Assembly: GCA_947466515.1 (NCBI GenBank) | Contig: CANIEM010000001.1 | Coordinates: forward strand, 62,001-126,000 | Length of the DNA stretch: 64,000 bases | Reading direction: 5' to 3' | DNA from: Verrucomicrobia subdivision 6 bacterium | Lineage (GTDB): Bacteria > Verrucomicrobiota > Verrucomicrobiia > Methylacidiphilales > Verrucolacustridaceae | Part shown: in pieces, positions 11 to 63,062 of the stretch | Numbering within the stretch: the stretch's first letter is position 1 | Layout: every line of letters begins with the position of its first letter | The notes under the pieces: generated by a model | Told to the model about the DNA's origin: nothing | Database searches by the model: none | The model's input: the letters and a program-made list of their open reading frames with translations, nothing else | Made by a program: the position numbers and the translations under genes

Positions 11-1954
11 TTAGGATTGGAGGAAAGTAGCGAAGGCTTTGAGTGGGAAGGCTCGTTTGTAATGGTCGTAGCGGATGAGGGTGGTCCGATAAAAAAGCCC
101 AGGAATCGGTTGAGGCGGAAAATCTCCATCGGCTTGTTGGGTTTTGAGAAGAAAATCCAGTCCTCTGATCACGGCAGGATCATCCTTCGGTCCTGTGGCG
201 AGAAGGGCGATAACCGCCAACGCGGTGGGCTCAACCAAACCCACCTCACTCGGAATCGGTCGACGTTGCAGGCAAGAGTCTGGATGCTCGCCCCATCCAC
301 CGTCGGCGAGCTGTTGGGAGAGAAGAAAATTACGCCCTCGAACTATTCGAGGGTCGTGAATGGGAAGGCCAGCTGCCAGGAGGCCTGGAAGGGCGAACGA
401 GGTTCCATAATTAAAGCAGATGCCCCAGACCGCTTCCCAAGAGCCGTCCTGTTTTTGGGTGTTGGTTAAATAACGGATGCCGTGCTGAATGGCTCGATCG
501 ACCGCGGTGGATTCCATTTCGGGAAACTTTTTTTGCACCAAGGCCAACGCCGCAAGAACCGATCCGGTGCACTCGGCGTACGAGTGATCGACCATGATGT
601 CGGCGAAGACGTGGGAGGCGTTAAAGATTTCAATCCAAGAAGGGCCGATGACTCGGTCGCAACTGCCCCAACCTCCGTCCCGGTTCTGGTAGCTGAGGAT
701 AAAATGGAGTCCGTCGGTAATGATCTTTGCAGAGATGGGCTGAGGAAGAAAAGGAGTGGCCTCGACTAGGGCGAGGATACTTTCGGCGGTGCAATCGGCA
801 ATGGACCAACCATTGCGACGTTCGCTGAAAGGCCAACCTCCTTTGCGGGGAAGGCGATGGTAGCGGCGGGGGGAAGGTAGTTCATCGATCACCTGATTTT
901 CGACAAGATAACGGCAACCGTTTTCGATTCCCTTACGGGGTGCTAAGTTTGAACCTAGAAGGTTCATCCCCTGTAGGGTGAAAGCGGTGTCCCAGACTTT
1001 GGAGGAGGTGAACCCCTGACACGCGGTGTATGCGGGAAATTGCCAAAGGTATCGAGGCAGTTCGCGCCAACTGCGATCGAGGAGTGCGGTCTTACCTTCG
1101 ACGAAATGGGCTAAGGTGTTGTAGCAGGCATTAACGGGGGCTTGGCGGGTAAAATCAGACTGCTCGTCCTCGTAGACGATGTGTTCGTATGTGAGGCGGA
1201 TGGCTTTTTTGCGCAGAAAGGAGGGGATCCATTTTTCTAGGATACGAACAGCAGGCATGATGAGGCGGACGACGAGGGTTTCTGGGACGATATGGTCGGT
1301 AGGGGCGAGATCGGCGCGATGCTGGGGCCAGTCGATCGTCTCGAATCCTTGCGGATAAAGTTCGGTGCGGAGTTGGAGGAGAATGGGATCGAGAGGAGCT
1401 TGCCAACGGCGTCCGTAGAAATAGGCCATAGGAAGATAAACAATTCGGACATAGCCAGAGATATTCGCGGGATGGATCGGAATCCATTTTGGCAAAAGAT
1501 AGAGTTCGGGCGGGACTGGGGTGACTCCCTCCCATGAGTAGAGGTTGAGGATGGAGAGAATAAATTTTCCCCAAGCAGCGGCTTTGATGGGAGTTCCAGA
1601 GGTGTGGATCCAGGTGCGGAGTCGGGCGAGTTCATGGCGTTCTGGTTTTTCTCCGAGCAGACGAAGGGCGACGTAGGAGATGGCACTGGTAAAGACGGCC
1701 CCGCGGACCGATTCCTCGTGAAGACCGATGGAGCCGTCGGAGATTTGGGGCTGGAGAAGACCTGCGACAAATCTTGGCCGATCTTTTTTTGAAATGGGTC
1801 GTTGGGTGAGGTAGGCGGTAATGACGTAGAGCGGGAGAAGAAAGTTGGGTCCGGTGTAGGGAACGCACCAACTCCCGTCGGCGATTTGGGTGCGCTCGAG
1901 AAAACCGAGAAGGCGACGGGTGGCTTGGGTTACGGAATCGTGGCGAGTGGTCAT
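11..1954 (-). CDS. Oxidosqualene cyclase-type triterpene cyclase
   Basis: This 647-residue protein belongs to the squalene/oxidosqualene cyclase superfamily, which folds squalene or its epoxide into polycyclic triterpenes at the membrane. The acid motif is D387-C-T-A-E, the oxidosqualene cyclase (sterol) form, not the DxDD form of squalene-hopene cyclases. Other oxidosqualene-type blocks are FYGRR, WDTAF, GGWPFSERRNGW, DIMVDHSYAECT with C462, and GICFNYGT. Both cysteines that support the catalytic Asp in known family members are present. QW-type repeats (QxxDGSW, QxxDGGWG) recur. At 647 aa it is shorter than the usual ~730. The substrate inference rests on motifs alone. It overlaps the PIG-L gene by 4 bp and ends near the window edge, so partners further left cannot be seen. 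Confidence 0.88.
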   Translation of the reverse strand: MTTRHDSVTQATRRLLGFLERTQIADGSWCVPYTGPNFLLPLYVITAYLTQRPISKKDRPRFVAGLLQPQISDGSIGLHEESVRGAVFTSAISYVALRLLGEKPERHELARLRTWIHTSGTPIKAAAWGKFILSILNLYSWEGVTPVPPELYLLPKWIPIHPANISGYVRIVYLPMAYFYGRRWQAPLDPILLQLRTELYPQGFETIDWPQHRADLAPTDHIVPETLVVRLIMPAVRILEKWIPSFLRKKAIRLTYEHIVYEDEQSDFTRQAPVNACYNTLAHFVEGKTALLDRSWRELPRYLWQFPAYTACQGFTSSKVWDTAFTLQGMNLLGSNLAPRKGIENGCRYLVENQVIDELPSPRRYHRLPRKGGWPFSERRNGWSIADCTAESILALVEATPFLPQPISAKIITDGLHFILSYQNRDGGWGSCDRVIGPSWIEIFNASHVFADIMVDHSYAECTGSVLAALALVQKKFPEMESTAVDRAIQHGIRYLTNTQKQDGSWEAVWGICFNYGTSFALPGLLAAGLPIHDPRIVRGRNFLLSQQLADGGWGEHPDSCLQRRPIPSEVGLVEPTALAVIALLATGPKDDPAVIRGLDFLLKTQQADGDFPPQPIPGLFYRTTLIRYDHYKRAFPLKAFATFLQS

Positions 1955-6604: not shown

Positions 6605-9600
6605 ATGCTTATGCGTAACTATTTAAAAGCTATATTTGGGATAATTTTAGTGGGCGCACTTGTGCTGGTTGGGTATTTCTCTTTTGAAAAGTTGGAGCGT
6701 AAAAAAAGTGCGAAAGTTGTAGGAACGGAAAATGTGGAAGGAGGCGGAAAGGTTGATGAATCGGTTGCCGTAACGACCGACAAGGGAATAGGGGTGGGGG
6801 TTGCGGGGAATCGGAAAAGTGAGGTAGCGAATTTTCCTGGAAAGGGTTCGGTGGGTGAAGAAAAGAGGGTGAACACCTCTCTGCGATTGAGGTTGGCTCC
6901 GAATACGAAGTTGGTTTCTTCCTCGCAGGTTGGACAAAAAAATAGTTCAACTTATCCAGGACAAGTGGAAGAATTCAAAAACCAACCCATTGTGGATCTT
7001 TTGCAGAACTATGATTTGAGCGATCCAGCAACGCGGGCGGCGGTGGCGAGCGAGATGTTATGGAGAGAGAATGCGCGATACGCCAAAGTGCTGGCAAGGG
7101 CGGAAGAGTTGGGGATACCCGTGAGAATTGAGGGACCTGGGCACAAGGTGTCCCGAATTTATGATATTCGCGGAGATCAACCGCTTTACCGCAATACTTT
7201 GAATGCGAACGCCTCAATTTCCACTGGGGCGAACTCATTAAATATCGCACCCTATGGATTGAATGGGACCGGAATGACGGTCGGACTCTGGGACGAAGCC
7301 CGGGCGAGAACGAATCACCAAGAGTTAGCAGGTAAAGTGACTATTATGGACGGAACATCAAGCAACAGCGATCACTCCACACACTGTGCAGGAACGATTG
7401 CGGCGCTTGGAGTGGATCCGAAGGCAAAGGGGATGGGCACAGCGACAAGGATTAATTCCTATGATTGGAACAGTGATTACGCTGAGTTGACCGCGGTGGC
7501 GGCAGTCACGGCAAGCGATGCGGCCAAACTTTCGATTTCAAGTCACTCCTACGGGTATGGGGCAACGAATGTGGATATGGGGCGCTATGAGACAGAGGCC
7601 AGCACAACGGATGCACTGGTGTATGGGACTCCGTATCACGCGATTTTCTGGGCGGCCGGAAATGAGCAAACAGACCTACCTTCGCTCGGTGGATATCAAT
7701 CCATCACCTTCAACGGACTAGCGAAGAACATTATTACAATCGCGGCGGGGGATGACGCGGTGACTGCGGGAGTGCGGAACCCTGCGGTTGGAACATTGGC
7801 TTATTTCTCAAGTATGGGTCCCTGCGATGACGGCCGAATCAAGCCAGATGTGACGGCCAATGGGGTGAATTTGTACTCCTGCATTGGCACGGGCAATACA
7901 GCCTATGACGGAACCTACAGTGGGACGAGTATGGCTACGCCCAATGCCTCAGGCTCAACGGCTTTGTTGGTTCAACTTTATAAAGCTAATTTCTCAGGAC
8001 AGATTCCTAGTGCAAGTATGCTCAAGGGTCTGCTCATCCATACCGCGGATGATATGGGGCGGGTGGGACCCGACTACCAATATGGCTGGGGTTATCTTAA
8101 TGTGAAAGCGGCGGCAGATTTAATTTTAGCTCATAAGGCCAGCCTGGCGGCACCGAAGATGATCGAGGGGACGATCACCACTGCCAATAAAATTCAAACT
8201 CACCCCTTTGTTTGGGATGGTGTTAGTCCGATCCGCGCTACCTTGGTTTGGACCGATCCTGCGGGAACCGCCCAAACGGCAGTCCATACTCGCACGGCGA
8301 ATCTTGTTCACGATCTGGACCTAAAAATCACGGCACCCGATGGGACGACTACCTACCTTCCGTACGTCATGCCGTTTGTCGGCACTTGGACAACTGCCTC
8401 AATGACAAGCTTGGCAACCAGAGGGGTGAATCATGTGGACAATGTGGAGCGAGTAGATCTGGATACGCCCACCGTTTCTGGCACGGCCTACACGGCGACG
8501 ATTTCGCTCACGGGAAATCTGAAGTCAGGGGTGACCAGTCAAAACTACTCGTTGATTTTGACAGGAGGAGCGAACCTCGCTGCGAATCCTCCCCCGAGCG
8601 TGACTTTAACCGCACCAACAGATGGGGCGGTTATTCTGCCGAATGTACCGATCACTTTGACCGCCACGGCGGCTGATCAAACCTCGTCGGGCGCCACGGG
8701 AACGGTAACGAAGGTGGAGTTTTTTGATGGAGCCACCAAGCTCGGGGAGGATCTGAGTACGCCTTATTCACTCCCTTGGACCCCAACAGTCAGCGGAGTT
8801 CATGTCCTCACAGCGAAAGCGACCGACAGTGAGAATGCTTCTTCTTCGTCGGCTTCCGTTGGAGTGACCGTGATGATTGGCGATGGAACGCCAGTGGTTA
8901 CATCGTTTACCCCAACGAGTGGGACGGGGGGTGGACTGGTCGTGCTGACAGGCTCGAACTTGGCAGGCAGCACCTCGGTAAAATTTAACGGGTTATCCTC
9001 ATCTTTTACGGTTGATTCGGCAACCCAGATTACAGCGACTGTTCCTAGCTTGGCCACTACGGGAAAGATCTCGGTGACGAACGGGTTTGGTAGCTCAGAG
9101 AGTTTAACCAACTTCACGATTGTTCCTATTCTGCTAAATGAGAATTTTTCGGCCATCACGAGTGGAGACAATACGACAACTTCAGGATCGAGCGCAGCTT
9201 GGGCGGGAGACACGCTTTTTCCCACAGTGGTGAATACGTATCAGGCAGGCGGGGCAGTGAGGTTGGGGAAGACCAGTGCGGCAGGTTCAATCACCAGCAA
9301 AACTTTGGATCTGAGTGTGAATGGAGGAGTCTTTGATGTGAGTTTCGATGTTAAAGGGTGGAATTCTTCGGGAAATATTGTGGTGACGGTGAGTGGATTG
9401 ACCCCGCAAACAATCTCTTATACCAGCTTATTGACCGAAAGCTTCGAAGCGAAGACCTTGCATTTCAATGGGGGGACGGCAAACAAGACGATTACATTTG
9501 CCACTGACAGCACCACGAAGCGTGCATTTTTAGATAATATTATTGTTTTCTATACCCCAGCAGTCGAAGTTGCACCTGTGATCAGCAGTCCCCTGGCACA

Positions 9601-12600
9601 GTCGGGGACGGTGGGTAGTGCATTTAATTATCAGATCACGGCTTCCAGCAGTCCGATATCGTATGGAGCAACAGGATTACCTGGGGGACTTGGCATCAAC
9701 ACATCGACGGGGGCAATCACAGGAACGCCGACAGTGGCGGGGACATCCAACGTGACCATATCTGCGACGAACAGTGCGGGAACAGGATCGGCCACGCTGG
9801 TGATTACTGTAAGTAATCCTCCTCCACCAGTGATCAGTAGTTCCCTGACGTCAACGGGGACGGTGGGTAGTGCGTTTAGTTATTCAATCACGGCCTCCGG
9901 GAATCCGACTTCATATGGAGCAACAGGGTTGCCTGGGGGACTTGGCATCAACACATCGACGGGGGCAATCACAGGAACTCCGACATCAGCGGGAACTTCG
10001 AATGTGACGATTTCCGCAACGAATGGTTCGGGAACAGGATCGGCCACTTTGGTGATTACGGTGAACTCCTCAGCCTCAGCTCCTGTGATCAGCAGTTCCC
10101 TGACAGCGACAGGCACCGTAGGGACGGCGTTTAGCTATCAGATTGCAGCATCCGGTAGTCCAACCTTGTTTGGGGCAACGGGTTTGCCTGCGGGGCTGAG
10201 TCTCAACACGGGCACCGGCGCCATCTCAGGAACTCCGACGGCGGCAGGAACGTCCAATGTGCTGATTTCCGCAACGAATGGTTCGGGAACGGGAACGGCT
10301 ACACTGGTGATTACGGTAAGTCCGAGTGGGGGTGGGACTAGCGGACTGATTGCCGGATGGGATTTTCAGACCACCACAACCGGAGGAACGATTATAACTG
10401 CATCTCCGAATTCCCCGCTGTCTTACATCGCAAATTTTGGAGCGGGCACAATTTATCTGGATGGTTCTAACGGTTCATCAAGCTGGACATCTTTAGTGAC
10501 CAATCCAGAAGTTACGAGTTTCACGGGAACAGCGGTTAATGCAGGAACTGGGTTCTCCACTACAACAACGTCTCCAGCTTGTCTGGCTCTGGCCAACAGC
10601 TCTGCGAATGGAAAGACAGTTGTTTTTAGGTTCAGCATGTCGGGCCGCAAGGATTTGGTTGTTTCCTATGCAACGCAGAGATCTGGAACAGGGTTTACTA
10701 CGCATCTTTGGGAAACAAGCCCAGATGGATCTAACTGGACAGCAGCAGAAACCAAGACAATCACGGCAACTTCTTTCGCTGCAACAACCCTCACAACAAT
10801 CACCAGACTTGATAATGCCTCAACTGCTTATCTTCGTCTGACGGTAACTGGGGCGACAAATGCAACAGGAAATAATCGTCTAGATAATATTCAGCTTAAT
10901 GCGACAGCAGCAGCGACGACACCCACAGTCAGCGTAAGCGGAACGTTGGCGGCGGTGAACACCACGTACGGAACTGCGTCATCTGCGCCGACCAGCTTCA
11001 CGGTCTCCGGCTCAAATCTGAATGAAGGGATTCTGATTAATCCGCCCTCGGGTTATGAAATTTCCCAGACGGAAGGTGGTGTTTCTGGATATGCTGCAAC
11101 GCAAACAGTGGGGGCGGCAGGGACGGTGGCGACGAAGACGATTTATGTGAGGTTGAGGGCTACAACCGCTGTCGGCAGCTATTCTGGAAACGTGACTTGC
11201 AATAGTGCGGGATCGGCTGGAGCCACCGTAGCAACTGTGGCAAGTTCCGTGGGTAAGAAGCAGCTCACGATCAGCGGTCTAGTCGGAGTAGACAAATTTT
11301 ACAATGGAACCATCGCGGCCCAGCTCCTAGGAACGCCAACTTATGTGGGGTTAGTCAACGGAGACGATTTAAGTGTGACAGGTGTCCCTAATGCTTCTTT
11401 TTCGGACAAAAATGTGGGCGTAGGCAAGACGGTGACGATCTTAGGATTCACCGATCCGAATGGAAACTACTCGGTCACGGCCCCAACAGTAACGGCAACC
11501 ATTAGCCCCAAGGAGGTTGCGATCATAGGGTTGAGCGGCGTGAGTAGGGCATACAATGGGAATCAGGTCGCACAGTTGTTAGGGACTCCGAGTTATCAAG
11601 GTTTAGAGAATGGTGAGACTTTTGCGGTTAGCGGCACCCCTATAGCGACGTTTGCGGATAAAAATGTTGGAGCCAGCAAAACGGTGGCTGTGACGGGATA
11701 CACGGCACCGAACGAAAACTATACACTGATTGCGCCTGCCGTGATGGCAGATATTACCCGCAAATCGGTTTCGATTGCGGGGTTGAGTGGGGTGAATAGG
11801 GAATATGATGGGACAGATGGCGCGATGGTGTCAGGAGTGCCCGCGTTAATAGGAATCGAATCGGGAGATTTGGAAAACGTTGGAATCGGCGGATTGCGAC
11901 TAACCTCTTTTGTGAGTCCGAATGCGGAACTGGATGTAGAGATTGTGGTCACAGGCTACGAACTGACAGGAATTGCATCAGTAAATTACGATTTGATGGC
12001 AGTGAGTGGAATAGCCGGAAATATAGTTCCCAGGAGTGCCACCATTACGGCGAATGATCAGAGCAAGGTATATGGAACTGTGCTGGGTTTAGGGGCGGGG
12101 CAGAGCGAATTTACGGTGGTGGGTCTAATCGGAAGTGAAAGAGTGAGAACCGTGACACTGACGGCGACTGGCGGGACGGAAACGCACGATGCGGTTGGCA
12201 CTTATGTTATTCGTGCCTCTGAACCGACAAGATTAGCGCTGGATAGTTTTCGCCCGGAAAATTATGTCTTCACATTTGTGGACGGAACGTTGACGGTGAC
12301 CGATGCACCCACGACGGTCACTTTATCGGAGTGGGTGACGCAGAACGGGCTGAGTGGGGCTGATGCCGCACCGGATGCCGATCCGGATCATGATGGTGTC
12401 TCCAATTTGATGGCTTACTACATGGCTTTGGATCCCAAGGGTGGGCAAGGGATGGTTGGCTATGGATTAAAACCTGTCACCGACGGTTCGCTTTCTCTGA
12501 CCTATCGCAGGTCGAAGGGGGTGACAGGGGTGTCGGCCACCGTGCAGGCAAGTGGTGATCTCTCATCCAGCTGGAATACACCTAGCGTTCAGGAAAGCGT

Positions 12601-12697
12601 GGTGGACAAGGGGACTTATGAGGAGGTGACGGTGACGGTTACGACTCCTACGGGTTCGACGAAAATGTTTATGCGGTTAAAGCTGACCCAGCCTTAA
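6605..12697 (+). CDS. Giant secreted subtilisin-like (S8) protease with Ig-like stalk
   Basis: This 2030-residue protein begins with an uncleaved-looking hydrophobic anchor (residues 8-27). An S8 peptidase domain (about 212-502) carries catalytic Asp230 (GLWDEA), His257 (HSTHCAG) and Ser442 (GTSMATP), with AAGNE as the oxyanion Asn. A Kp43-like beta-sandwich follows (516-657), then a Big-type Ig domain (659-758), an IPT/TIG domain (762-838), a jelly-roll-like segment (842-985), three putative-Ig (He_PIG) repeats (989-1239), a further lectin-like segment (1247-1435), three YDG-type repeats and an MBG-type repeat (1552-1898). Near 1926 the Ca-binding-like DADPDHDGVSN precedes a C-terminal domain common in secreted verrucomicrobial proteins. 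It is likely cell-surface; the substrate is unknown. Confidence 0.88.
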   Translation: MLMRNYLKAIFGIILVGALVLVGYFSFEKLERKKSAKVVGTENVEGGGKVDESVAVTTDKGIGVGVAGNRKSEVANFPGKGSVGEEKRVNTSLRLRLAPNTKLVSSSQVGQKNSSTYPGQVEEFKNQPIVDLLQNYDLSDPATRAAVASEMLWRENARYAKVLARAEELGIPVRIEGPGHKVSRIYDIRGDQPLYRNTLNANASISTGANSLNIAPYGLNGTGMTVGLWDEARARTNHQELAGKVTIMDGTSSNSDHSTHCAGTIAALGVDPKAKGMGTATRINSYDWNSDYAELTAVAAVTASDAAKLSISSHSYGYGATNVDMGRYETEASTTDALVYGTPYHAIFWAAGNEQTDLPSLGGYQSITFNGLAKNIITIAAGDDAVTAGVRNPAVGTLAYFSSMGPCDDGRIKPDVTANGVNLYSCIGTGNTAYDGTYSGTSMATPNASGSTALLVQLYKANFSGQIPSASMLKGLLIHTADDMGRVGPDYQYGWGYLNVKAAADLILAHKASLAAPKMIEGTITTANKIQTHPFVWDGVSPIRATLVWTDPAGTAQTAVHTRTANLVHDLDLKITAPDGTTTYLPYVMPFVGTWTTASMTSLATRGVNHVDNVERVDLDTPTVSGTAYTATISLTGNLKSGVTSQNYSLILTGGANLAANPPPSVTLTAPTDGAVILPNVPITLTATAADQTSSGATGTVTKVEFFDGATKLGEDLSTPYSLPWTPTVSGVHVLTAKATDSENASSSSASVGVTVMIGDGTPVVTSFTPTSGTGGGLVVLTGSNLAGSTSVKFNGLSSSFTVDSATQITATVPSLATTGKISVTNGFGSSESLTNFTIVPILLNENFSAITSGDNTTTSGSSAAWAGDTLFPTVVNTYQAGGAVRLGKTSAAGSITSKTLDLSVNGGVFDVSFDVKGWNSSGNIVVTVSGLTPQTISYTSLLTESFEAKTLHFNGGTANKTITFATDSTTKRAFLDNIIVFYTPAVEVAPVISSPLAQSGTVGSAFNYQITASSSPISYGATGLPGGLGINTSTGAITGTPTVAGTSNVTISATNSAGTGSATLVITVSNPPPPVISSSLTSTGTVGSAFSYSITASGNPTSYGATGLPGGLGINTSTGAITGTPTSAGTSNVTISATNGSGTGSATLVITVNSSASAPVISSSLTATGTVGTAFSYQIAASGSPTLFGATGLPAGLSLNTGTGAISGTPTAAGTSNVLISATNGSGTGTATLVITVSPSGGGTSGLIAGWDFQTTTTGGTIITASPNSPLSYIANFGAGTIYLDGSNGSSSWTSLVTNPEVTSFTGTAVNAGTGFSTTTTSPACLALANSSANGKTVVFRFSMSGRKDLVVSYATQRSGTGFTTHLWETSPDGSNWTAAETKTITATSFAATTLTTITRLDNASTAYLRLTVTGATNATGNNRLDNIQLNATAAATTPTVSVSGTLAAVNTTYGTASSAPTSFTVSGSNLNEGILINPPSGYEISQTEGGVSGYAATQTVGAAGTVATKTIYVRLRATTAVGSYSGNVTCNSAGSAGATVATVASSVGKKQLTISGLVGVDKFYNGTIAAQLLGTPTYVGLVNGDDLSVTGVPNASFSDKNVGVGKTVTILGFTDPNGNYSVTAPTVTATISPKEVAIIGLSGVSRAYNGNQVAQLLGTPSYQGLENGETFAVSGTPIATFADKNVGASKTVAVTGYTAPNENYTLIAPAVMADITRKSVSIAGLSGVNREYDGTDGAMVSGVPALIGIESGDLENVGIGGLRLTSFVSPNAELDVEIVVTGYELTGIASVNYDLMAVSGIAGNIVPRSATITANDQSKVYGTVLGLGAGQSEFTVVGLIGSERVRTVTLTATGGTETHDAVGTYVIRASEPTRLALDSFRPENYVFTFVDGTLTVTDAPTTVTLSEWVTQNGLSGADAAPDADPDHDGVSNLMAYYMALDPKGGQGMVGYGLKPVTDGSLSLTYRRSKGVTGVSATVQASGDLSSSWNTPSVQESVVDKGTYEEVTVTVTTPTGSTKMFMRLKLTQP
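9594..10322 (+). repeat. Three tandem near-identical Ig-domain DNA repeats
   Basis: Within the protease gene, three units of about 252-255 bp repeat in tandem; equivalent positions are 9665, 9917 and 10172. Units one and two are nearly identical at the DNA level across the block encoding GLPGGLGINTSTGAITGTPT. The third is more diverged (GLPAGLSLNTGTGAISGTPT). The near-identity points to recent duplication or gene conversion, so copy number may vary between strains. Confidence 0.85.
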
Positions 12698-61094: not shown

Positions 61095-63062
61095 ATGGCA
61101 AAAATATTAGGAATTGATTTAGGAACGACTAACTCATGTATGTCGGTTATGGAAGCTGGGCAACCAGTGGTTCTAGAAAACTCGGAGGGAGCGCGCACCA
61201 CTCCGTCTATTGTGGCTTTTACGAAGGGTGGGGAGCGGGTGGTGGGGCAGGCGGCTAAGCGGCAAGCGGTGACAAATCCTAAGAATACGATTTTTTCGGT
61301 TAAACGCCTGATTGGTCGTAAATTTGTTGAGGTGCAGGAAGAGACGAAGCGGTTGCCCTACAAAGTGGTGGCAGCGAAAAATGGGGATGCGCATGTCGAA
61401 GTGGAAGTGAAGGGGGAGAAAAAATCTTTTTCGCCCGAGGAAGTTTCCTCCTTTATTTTGGCCAAACTCAAGGCGGATGCGGAATCGAAGTTGGGGGAGA
61501 AGATCACCCAAGCGGTGATCACGGTACCTGCTTATTTCAACGATAGTCAACGTCAGGCGACGAAGGACGCGGGGAAAATTGCTGGGTTGGAAGTTTTGCG
61601 GATCATTAATGAGCCGACCGCAGCCTCTTTGGCCTACGGACTGGATAAGAAGAAGGATGAGAAGATTGCGGTTTATGATTTGGGCGGTGGGACTTTTGAT
61701 ATCTCGGTTTTGGATATTGGGGACGGGCTGTTCGAGGTGAAGGCGACGAATGGGGATACCCATTTGGGTGGAGACGATTGGGACATGGCGGTGATGGACT
61801 GGATTATTGCGGAGTTTAAAGCGGATGCTGGGATCGACTTGCATGGGCAGCCTGATGCCTTGCAGAGAATCCGAGAAGAGGCAGAGAAGGCGAAGATTGC
61901 TCTTTCTTCGGCGCAAGAGTACGAGATCAACCTGCCTTTTGTGACGGCGGATGCTTCTGGGCCGAAGCACATCGCGAAGAAACTGACCCGAGCAAAGCTG
62001 GAGCAGTTGACCGACAAGTTACGGGAACGGACGATTGGACCGGTAAACGCCTGTCTGAAGGATGCGGGCCTGGCATCCAAACAGATTGATGAGCTGGTTT
62101 TGGTGGGAGGAATGACGCGGATGCCCTCGATTATTGAGACTGCGCGCAAGTTGATTGGGAAAGAGCCGCACAAAGGGGTGAATCCCGATGAGGTGGTGGC
62201 AATTGGGGCGGCGATTCAAGGTGGTGTGTTGAAGGGTGATGTCCACGATGTGCTTCTCCTCGACGTAACCCCCTTGACCTTGGCAATTGAAACGGCGGGT
62301 GGAGTGGCGACTCCGATGATTCCAAGGAATACGACAGTGCCGACGAAAAAAACGAATGTGTTTAGCACGTACTCGGACAACCAGCCGGGGGTGGAAATTG
62401 TGATTTTGCAGGGGGAACGACCTCTTTCTCGCGATAACAAGAGGCTGGGCACCTTTCATTTGGACGGGATTCCGCCTGCCCCGCGTGGCGTGCCCCAAGT
62501 TGAGGTGACGTTTGACATCGATACCAACGGAATTCTGCAAGTTTCAGCGAAGGATCTGGGGTCGGGGAAAGAGCAGAAAATTTCGATTACTGGCTCGAGC
62601 GGTCTATCTAAAGAAGAGGTAGAGAAGCTGACGCGCGAAGCGAAGGAGCATGAGGCAGAAGATCTTAAGGCAAAGGAGAAGATTGAATCGCGGAACACAG
62701 CGGAGAACACTGCTTTTGCTGCTGAGAAGATGATGAAGGAGATGGGGGACAAGCTGGACGGGGCGAAGAAAAAGGAGATTGAGGAGGCGGCGGCCGCGGT
62801 GAAAGAAGCGGTGAAGAAGGATGACGAAGCCCGGATTAAGGAGACGGCAGAAAAGCTGAACACGCTGGTGCAAGCGGTGAGTTCTGATCTCTATCGTCAG
62901 GCTTCGGAAAAAGCGGCGGCAGGAAAAGAAGCAACTTCGGAACCGGGAAACTCGGGCGCGGCGGATCGCGGAACCCAACCTGAAAAGGGTGAGGGGGAAG
63001 TGATTGATGCCGAGTTCGAGATGGTTGACAAAAACAAGAAGGGCGGCCCAAAGCCGAGTTAA
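61095..63062 (+). CDS. dnaK: Chaperone DnaK (Hsp70)
   Basis: This 655-residue Hsp70 has the ATPase domain ([42 protein letters not shown]), the [14 protein letters not shown] linker/substrate transition, a substrate-binding domain to about 540 and a Lys-rich helical lid. The C-terminal tail ([16 protein letters not shown]) lacks the eukaryotic-style EEVD and is ordinary for bacteria. groES follows 78 bp downstream; no grpE or dnaJ gene is adjacent. Confidence 0.97.

Follow-up and report, generated by a model that had tools for sequence, protein, structure and literature searches.

An oxidosqualene cyclase with altered catalytic residues is conserved across the genus Verrucomicrobia subdivision 6 next to a likely squalene epoxidase

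Genomes of the genus Verrucomicrobia subdivision 6 carry an oxidosqualene cyclase (OSC) in which the residues equivalent to human His232 and Tyr503 are replaced by Tyr and Cys. The class of the enzyme, its epoxidase partner, its conservation across the genus and its residue changes are read directly from the sequence. For activity and product we rely on prediction, and we judge it fairly probable that the OSC and the epoxidase are a working pair making an unmodified 3-hydroxy triterpenol other than lanosterol or cycloartenol. The gene lies in a window of 64,000 nucleotides, the whole stretch of DNA analyzed. On its contig of 147 kb the window starts at base 62001, and window positions equal L003 positions minus 12000.

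Results

Assignment of the gene to the OSC class

Positions 11 to 1954 of the window, minus strand, hold the gene as an open reading frame (ORF) of 647 amino acids running from ATG to stop without an internal stop. The first-pass annotation, which gave no strand, had assigned it to the OSC class on the basis of a DCTAE motif, two supporting cysteines and several sequence blocks. Alignment confirmed the catalytic-acid motif at residues 387-391 (782 to 796, minus strand, computed from the residue number; human D455 and C456) and placed C388 and C462 opposite human Cys456 and Cys533. The DxDD motif of squalene-hopene cyclases (SHCs) is not present; DCTAE stands there instead. The blocks WDTAF and DIMVDHSYAECT agree with those of OSCs (human WDTAF and DIMIDYTYVECT), but FYGRR bears only a loose likeness to them.

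Both Pfam cyclase domains were matched. With the OSC model TIGR03463 the protein reached 546.5 bits, short of the curated cut-off (851), and with the hopene cyclase model TIGR01507 it reached 202 bits; it passed the broader squalene/oxidosqualene cyclase model TIGR01787 (466 over 322.7). Its best sequence match among solved structures was human lanosterol synthase, at 447 bits, with the Alicyclobacillus SHC at 113 bits. Foldseek analysis of an AlphaFold model (mean pLDDT 87.9, alignment of 31 sequences) yielded TMq values of 0.95 to the human OSC and 0.84 to SHC. The split between OSCs and SHCs was supported at 100/100 with our sequence on the OSC side, and a quicker tree concurred. It is near certain from these comparisons that the protein is an intact OSC, in agreement with the earlier class assignment. 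Membership of the SHCs was ruled out by motif, scores, tree and the presence of a separate SHC elsewhere in the genome.

Full-length homology, synteny among the genus loci and a dN/dS of about 0.06 between close genus members indicate that the ORF is not a chance one, and by the last measure the OSC is under purifying selection. A degenerate gene or pseudogene was ruled out by the open frames across the genus and the same dN/dS, and a contaminating contig by the occurrence of the same gene order in independent metagenome-assembled genomes (MAGs).

Neighboring epoxidase and squalene supply

A 424-residue flavoprotein is encoded just outside the window (L003:10691-11965), convergent with the OSC gene, the stop codons of the two standing 45 bases apart. 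It scored 75 bits with the squalene epoxidase family PF08491 (cut-off 20), and its best PDB match was human squalene monooxygenase (E 2e-26). When a profile of its family was used, squalene monooxygenase scored 161 bits and the next protein 63, with no geranylgeranyl (GG) reductase among the 60 best matches. In the window's genome, as in all 16 other genus loci containing that flank, the gene adjoins that of the OSC, and its dN/dS between close genus members is 0.04-0.06. The flavoprotein is likely to be the squalene epoxidase partner of the OSC, as a divergent member of its family. The first-pass annotation had proposed a search for an epoxidase and for squalene synthesis genes, and both were thus located, the latter as HpnC and an HpnD-HpnE fusion elsewhere in the genome. 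They lie in a separate hopanoid locus that also encodes a true SHC and a protein resembling HpnG; the fusion is a single ORF of 775 amino acids (L004:4904-7231).

Upstream of the OSC gene are two genus-conserved neighbors, identified by ORF, Pfam and synteny. A PIG-L/LmbE-type deacetylase gene (PF02585; 1951 to 2805, minus strand) overlaps the OSC start by 4 bases with its end, and a gene for a GtrA-type membrane protein (PF04138; 2802 to 3296, minus strand) overlaps that of the deacetylase by 4 bases. Those overlaps suggest that the three genes form one transcript. In a scan for promoters and terminators, signals were no more frequent than in shuffled sequences. The deacetylase had no solved-structure match, and a defence-system search returned no match for either protein. 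The gene order citramalate-type synthase, GtrA, PIG-L, OSC, epoxidase, DUF2017, ClpS and Obg recurs in independent MAGs of the genus.

Active-site residues

The codon for Tyr168 (1451 to 1453, minus strand) corresponds to human His232, and that for Cys432 (659 to 661, minus strand) to human Tyr503; both coordinates were computed from the residue numbers in the alignment. The first position is Tyr in 18/18 OSCs of the genus and His in 101/101 others, and the second is Cys in 18/18 and Tyr in 102/102 others. They are among 10 columns in which the genus has a fixed change, absent from 102 other OSCs, and in which the others are at least 95% conserved. Further genus-fixed changes are W230S, C231G, T381F and N697Y (human numbering). 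All OSCs from the order of L053 were of the His232/Tyr503 type, one fragment lacking the first position. The pair found in lanosterol and cycloartenol synthases is therefore not that of the genus OSCs. Tyr in place of His232 does not preclude the protosteryl route, which certain such enzymes, cucurbitadienol synthase among them, still use.

Compared with human lanosterol synthase (1w6j/1w6k), the genus OSC shares the fold and the acid motif, and D455, C456, C533, Y98, W387, F444, W581 and F696 are kept; it differs by H232Y, Y503C, W230S, T381F, N697Y and V453I. Val, Leu, Asn and Asp at human positions 236, 238, 495 and 527 are steroid-like, and Ile at 453 is the state of cycloartenol synthases (PMC4919349). 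In plants, H257 and Y532 (AtLAS1 numbering) are typical of cycloartenol and lanosterol synthases, with a suggested role in tetracyclic cation formation and final deprotonation, whereas position 257 is mostly Tyr in enzymes of the dammarane type (PMC6423090). By the offset between the two numbering schemes, we took these residues to be human 232 and 503. The dammarane-type plant OSC TwOSC1 (8j5z) also has Tyr at the His232 position, but it has Trp rather than Cys at that of Tyr503 and lies on a separate tree branch. Cys at this position is unlike both the steroidal and the dammarane-type plant classes. As D455, C456, C533 and the aromatic residues are kept, activation of the epoxide should work. 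The start of the reaction thus appears kept and its end changed. This speaks against lanosterol and cycloartenol as the product, although Ile453 and the four other columns named above are still steroid-like.

Sterol-modifying enzymes

Family searches of the 21 genus genomes, all incomplete MAGs (63-96%), gave no match to the ERG4/ERG24 family or to FA_hydroxylase, the fatty acid/sterol hydroxylase family. The ERG4/ERG24 model works, since it matched in two Bacteroidota OSC genomes used as a control. A P450 was found in 1/21 genomes and a Rieske protein in 1/21; bacterial C-4 demethylation uses the Rieske protein SdmA (PMC10202945). A multi-step sterol pathway with CYP51, an ERG24-type reductase and C-4 demethylation was not recovered from these MAGs. 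With the searched families essentially absent, the genus appears to encode no known sterol-modifying route, within the completeness of the MAGs. Gemmata reportedly makes lanosterol and parkeol via a short pathway, so that missing downstream enzymes do not exclude sterols. The sole P450 (L112, in G004) and the sole Rieske protein (L113, in G005) may be contamination or accessory genes.

Distribution and origin

The OSC was present in 21/21 genomes of the genus, labeled Verrucomicrobia subdivision 6 or BACL9 in public records, with isolate names that point to lakes. It was found in 0/41 other genomes of the order, nearly every genome of which has an SHC, and outside the genus in none among 388 genomes drawn from the phylum. 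Two GenBank MAGs named 'Akkermansia muciniphila' MsE-30jul19-86 (L035) and 'Candidatus Paceibacterota' MAG15 (L038) have a genus-type OSC with full synteny and appear to be mislabeled.

The genus OSCs are a single clade (100/100) within the OSCs in the careful tree, on a long stem of 1.43 changes per column, joined to those of Myxococcota at 99/97; a quick tree with more rows concurred on OSC membership and left the Myxococcota link open. These nearest relatives (Group 2-like; e.g. L049, JAUXYJ010000023.1) are 38-42% identical and keep W230, H232, Y503 and N697, where the genus OSCs have Ser, Tyr, Cys and Tyr. The L049 cluster likewise has an epoxidase of the same sub-family, plus a squalene synthase, and the two epoxidases pair at 100/100 in an unrooted tree with long branches. 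The nesting of the genus OSC with those of Myxococcota probably reflects horizontal acquisition, and the simplest reading of the trees is that OSC and epoxidase were acquired jointly from a Myxococcota-like source. A separate, ordinary OSC with His232/Tyr503 in an Akkermansiaceae MAG (UBA2367, L063) grouped with a Bacteroidota sequence, and this placement suggests a second independent acquisition in Verrucomicrobiota. The phylum of L049 also holds a second OSC group (L162-L174, L176-L177), with Tyr230, mostly Ala381 and Phe697, and Val or Met at 98.

Discussion

Proposed route and alternative readings

In the route that we propose, HpnC/D/E would supply squalene and the convergent epoxidase would convert it to 2,3-oxidosqualene. 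Asp387, aided by Cys388 and Cys462, would protonate the epoxide, and the OSC would cyclize the molecule to a 3-hydroxy triterpenol. With Tyr/Cys in place of His232/Tyr503 and with changes in neighboring pocket residues, the enzyme probably steers or quenches the cation in another way. The main product would then probably be another tetracyclic or pentacyclic triterpenol, used without CYP51-, ERG24-, ERG25- or SdmA-type modification beside the hopanoids from the separate SHC. We hold the non-sterol nature of the product with moderate confidence. The 'sterol-type' product of the first-pass annotation is not borne out in that form: the residue pair is replaced genus-wide, and the sterol oxidases and reductases covered by our family searches are essentially absent.

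It may be that the enzyme is a true sterol cyclase nevertheless, whose lanosterol, cycloartenol or parkeol is used unmodified in a minimal pathway of epoxidase and OSC. The OSC fold, acid motif and phylogeny would fit such an enzyme, as would Ile at 453, shared with cycloartenol synthases (PMC4919349), and the sterol residues kept by the nearest relatives in Myxococcota. We consider it rather unlikely, given that 18/18 genus sequences have Tyr/Cys at two positions that do not vary among about 100 other OSCs, and that the clade sits on such a long stem. Direct cyclization of squalene by a relative of the SHCs, with an unrelated flavoprotein next door, is very improbable: Ser-Gly at human positions 230-231 recalls the Ser-Ser or Ser-Ala of SHCs, but DCTAE with both cysteines replaces DxDD, the bit scores (447 vs 113) and the fully supported tree favor OSCs, and the genome has its own SHC in the hopanoid locus.

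The flavoprotein might instead be a reductase of the GG-reductase family, a family with a precedent in Bsr, which acts in myxobacterial C-24 sterol reduction (PMC12004948); oxidosqualene would then come from an enzyme that our searches did not find. Its best NCBIfam match is indeed the GG-reductase superfamily model TIGR02032 (72 bits, under the cut-off of 159), its motif HPLTATGIT, in part common to L049, departs from the canonical HPLTGGGMT, and it lies far from canonical bacterial epoxidases in the epoxidase tree. Against this, its PF08491 score is far over the cut-off, human squalene monooxygenase leads the profile search by about 100 bits with no GG-reductase in the 60 best, and the YxWxFP motif is absent. 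A reductase is thus improbable, and we retain the squalene epoxidase assignment.

Novelty and significance

The first-pass annotation had expected a verrucomicrobial example to widen the known range of bacterial sterol-type cyclases. Since one verrucomicrobial OSC was already listed by Wei et al. 2016 (PMC4919349), who found OSCs to be common in freshwater metagenomes, an OSC in the phylum is not new, and the Akkermansiaceae MAG adds an ordinary one. What is new is a genus-wide OSC clade with altered catalytic residues and without downstream enzymes. A search outside which most subscription literature lay returned nothing on this lineage and sterols. The closest functional precedent, likened by product only, is the eudoraenol (arborane-type) synthase of Eudoraea adriatica, a marine member of Bacteroidota and not of Verrucomicrobia. 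It is said, in work of Banta et al. in 2017, to be a bacterial OSC making a non-sterol pentacyclic triterpenol.

Whether sterane and triterpane biomarkers may be taken as signals of eukaryotes or plants depends on bacterial OSCs. With OSC and epoxidase in every sampled genome and an active site that differs from those of the roughly 100 OSCs compared, this genus of uncultured bacteria from many lakes and the Baltic Sea, where we take BACL9 to come from, is a testable candidate source of unassigned lacustrine triterpenols. We tentatively suggest that in these pelagic freshwater Verrucomicrobia the product is an undescribed or so far source-less 3-hydroxy triterpenol (e.g., an arborane-like pentacycle), that the OSC came from Myxococcota and had its deprotonation pair rewired thereafter, and that the co-located deacetylase and GtrA protein may decorate the product. 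In that case the genus could count among the candidate sources of the triterpenoid biomarkers of lake sediments. The genus OSC is also a natural experiment that bears on which residues make the difference between sterol and non-sterol cyclization.

Elsewhere in the window, on the plus strand at 6605-12697, an ORF of 2030 amino acids has a sequence suggestive of a subtilisin-type protease that is secreted and contains repeated Ig-like domains.
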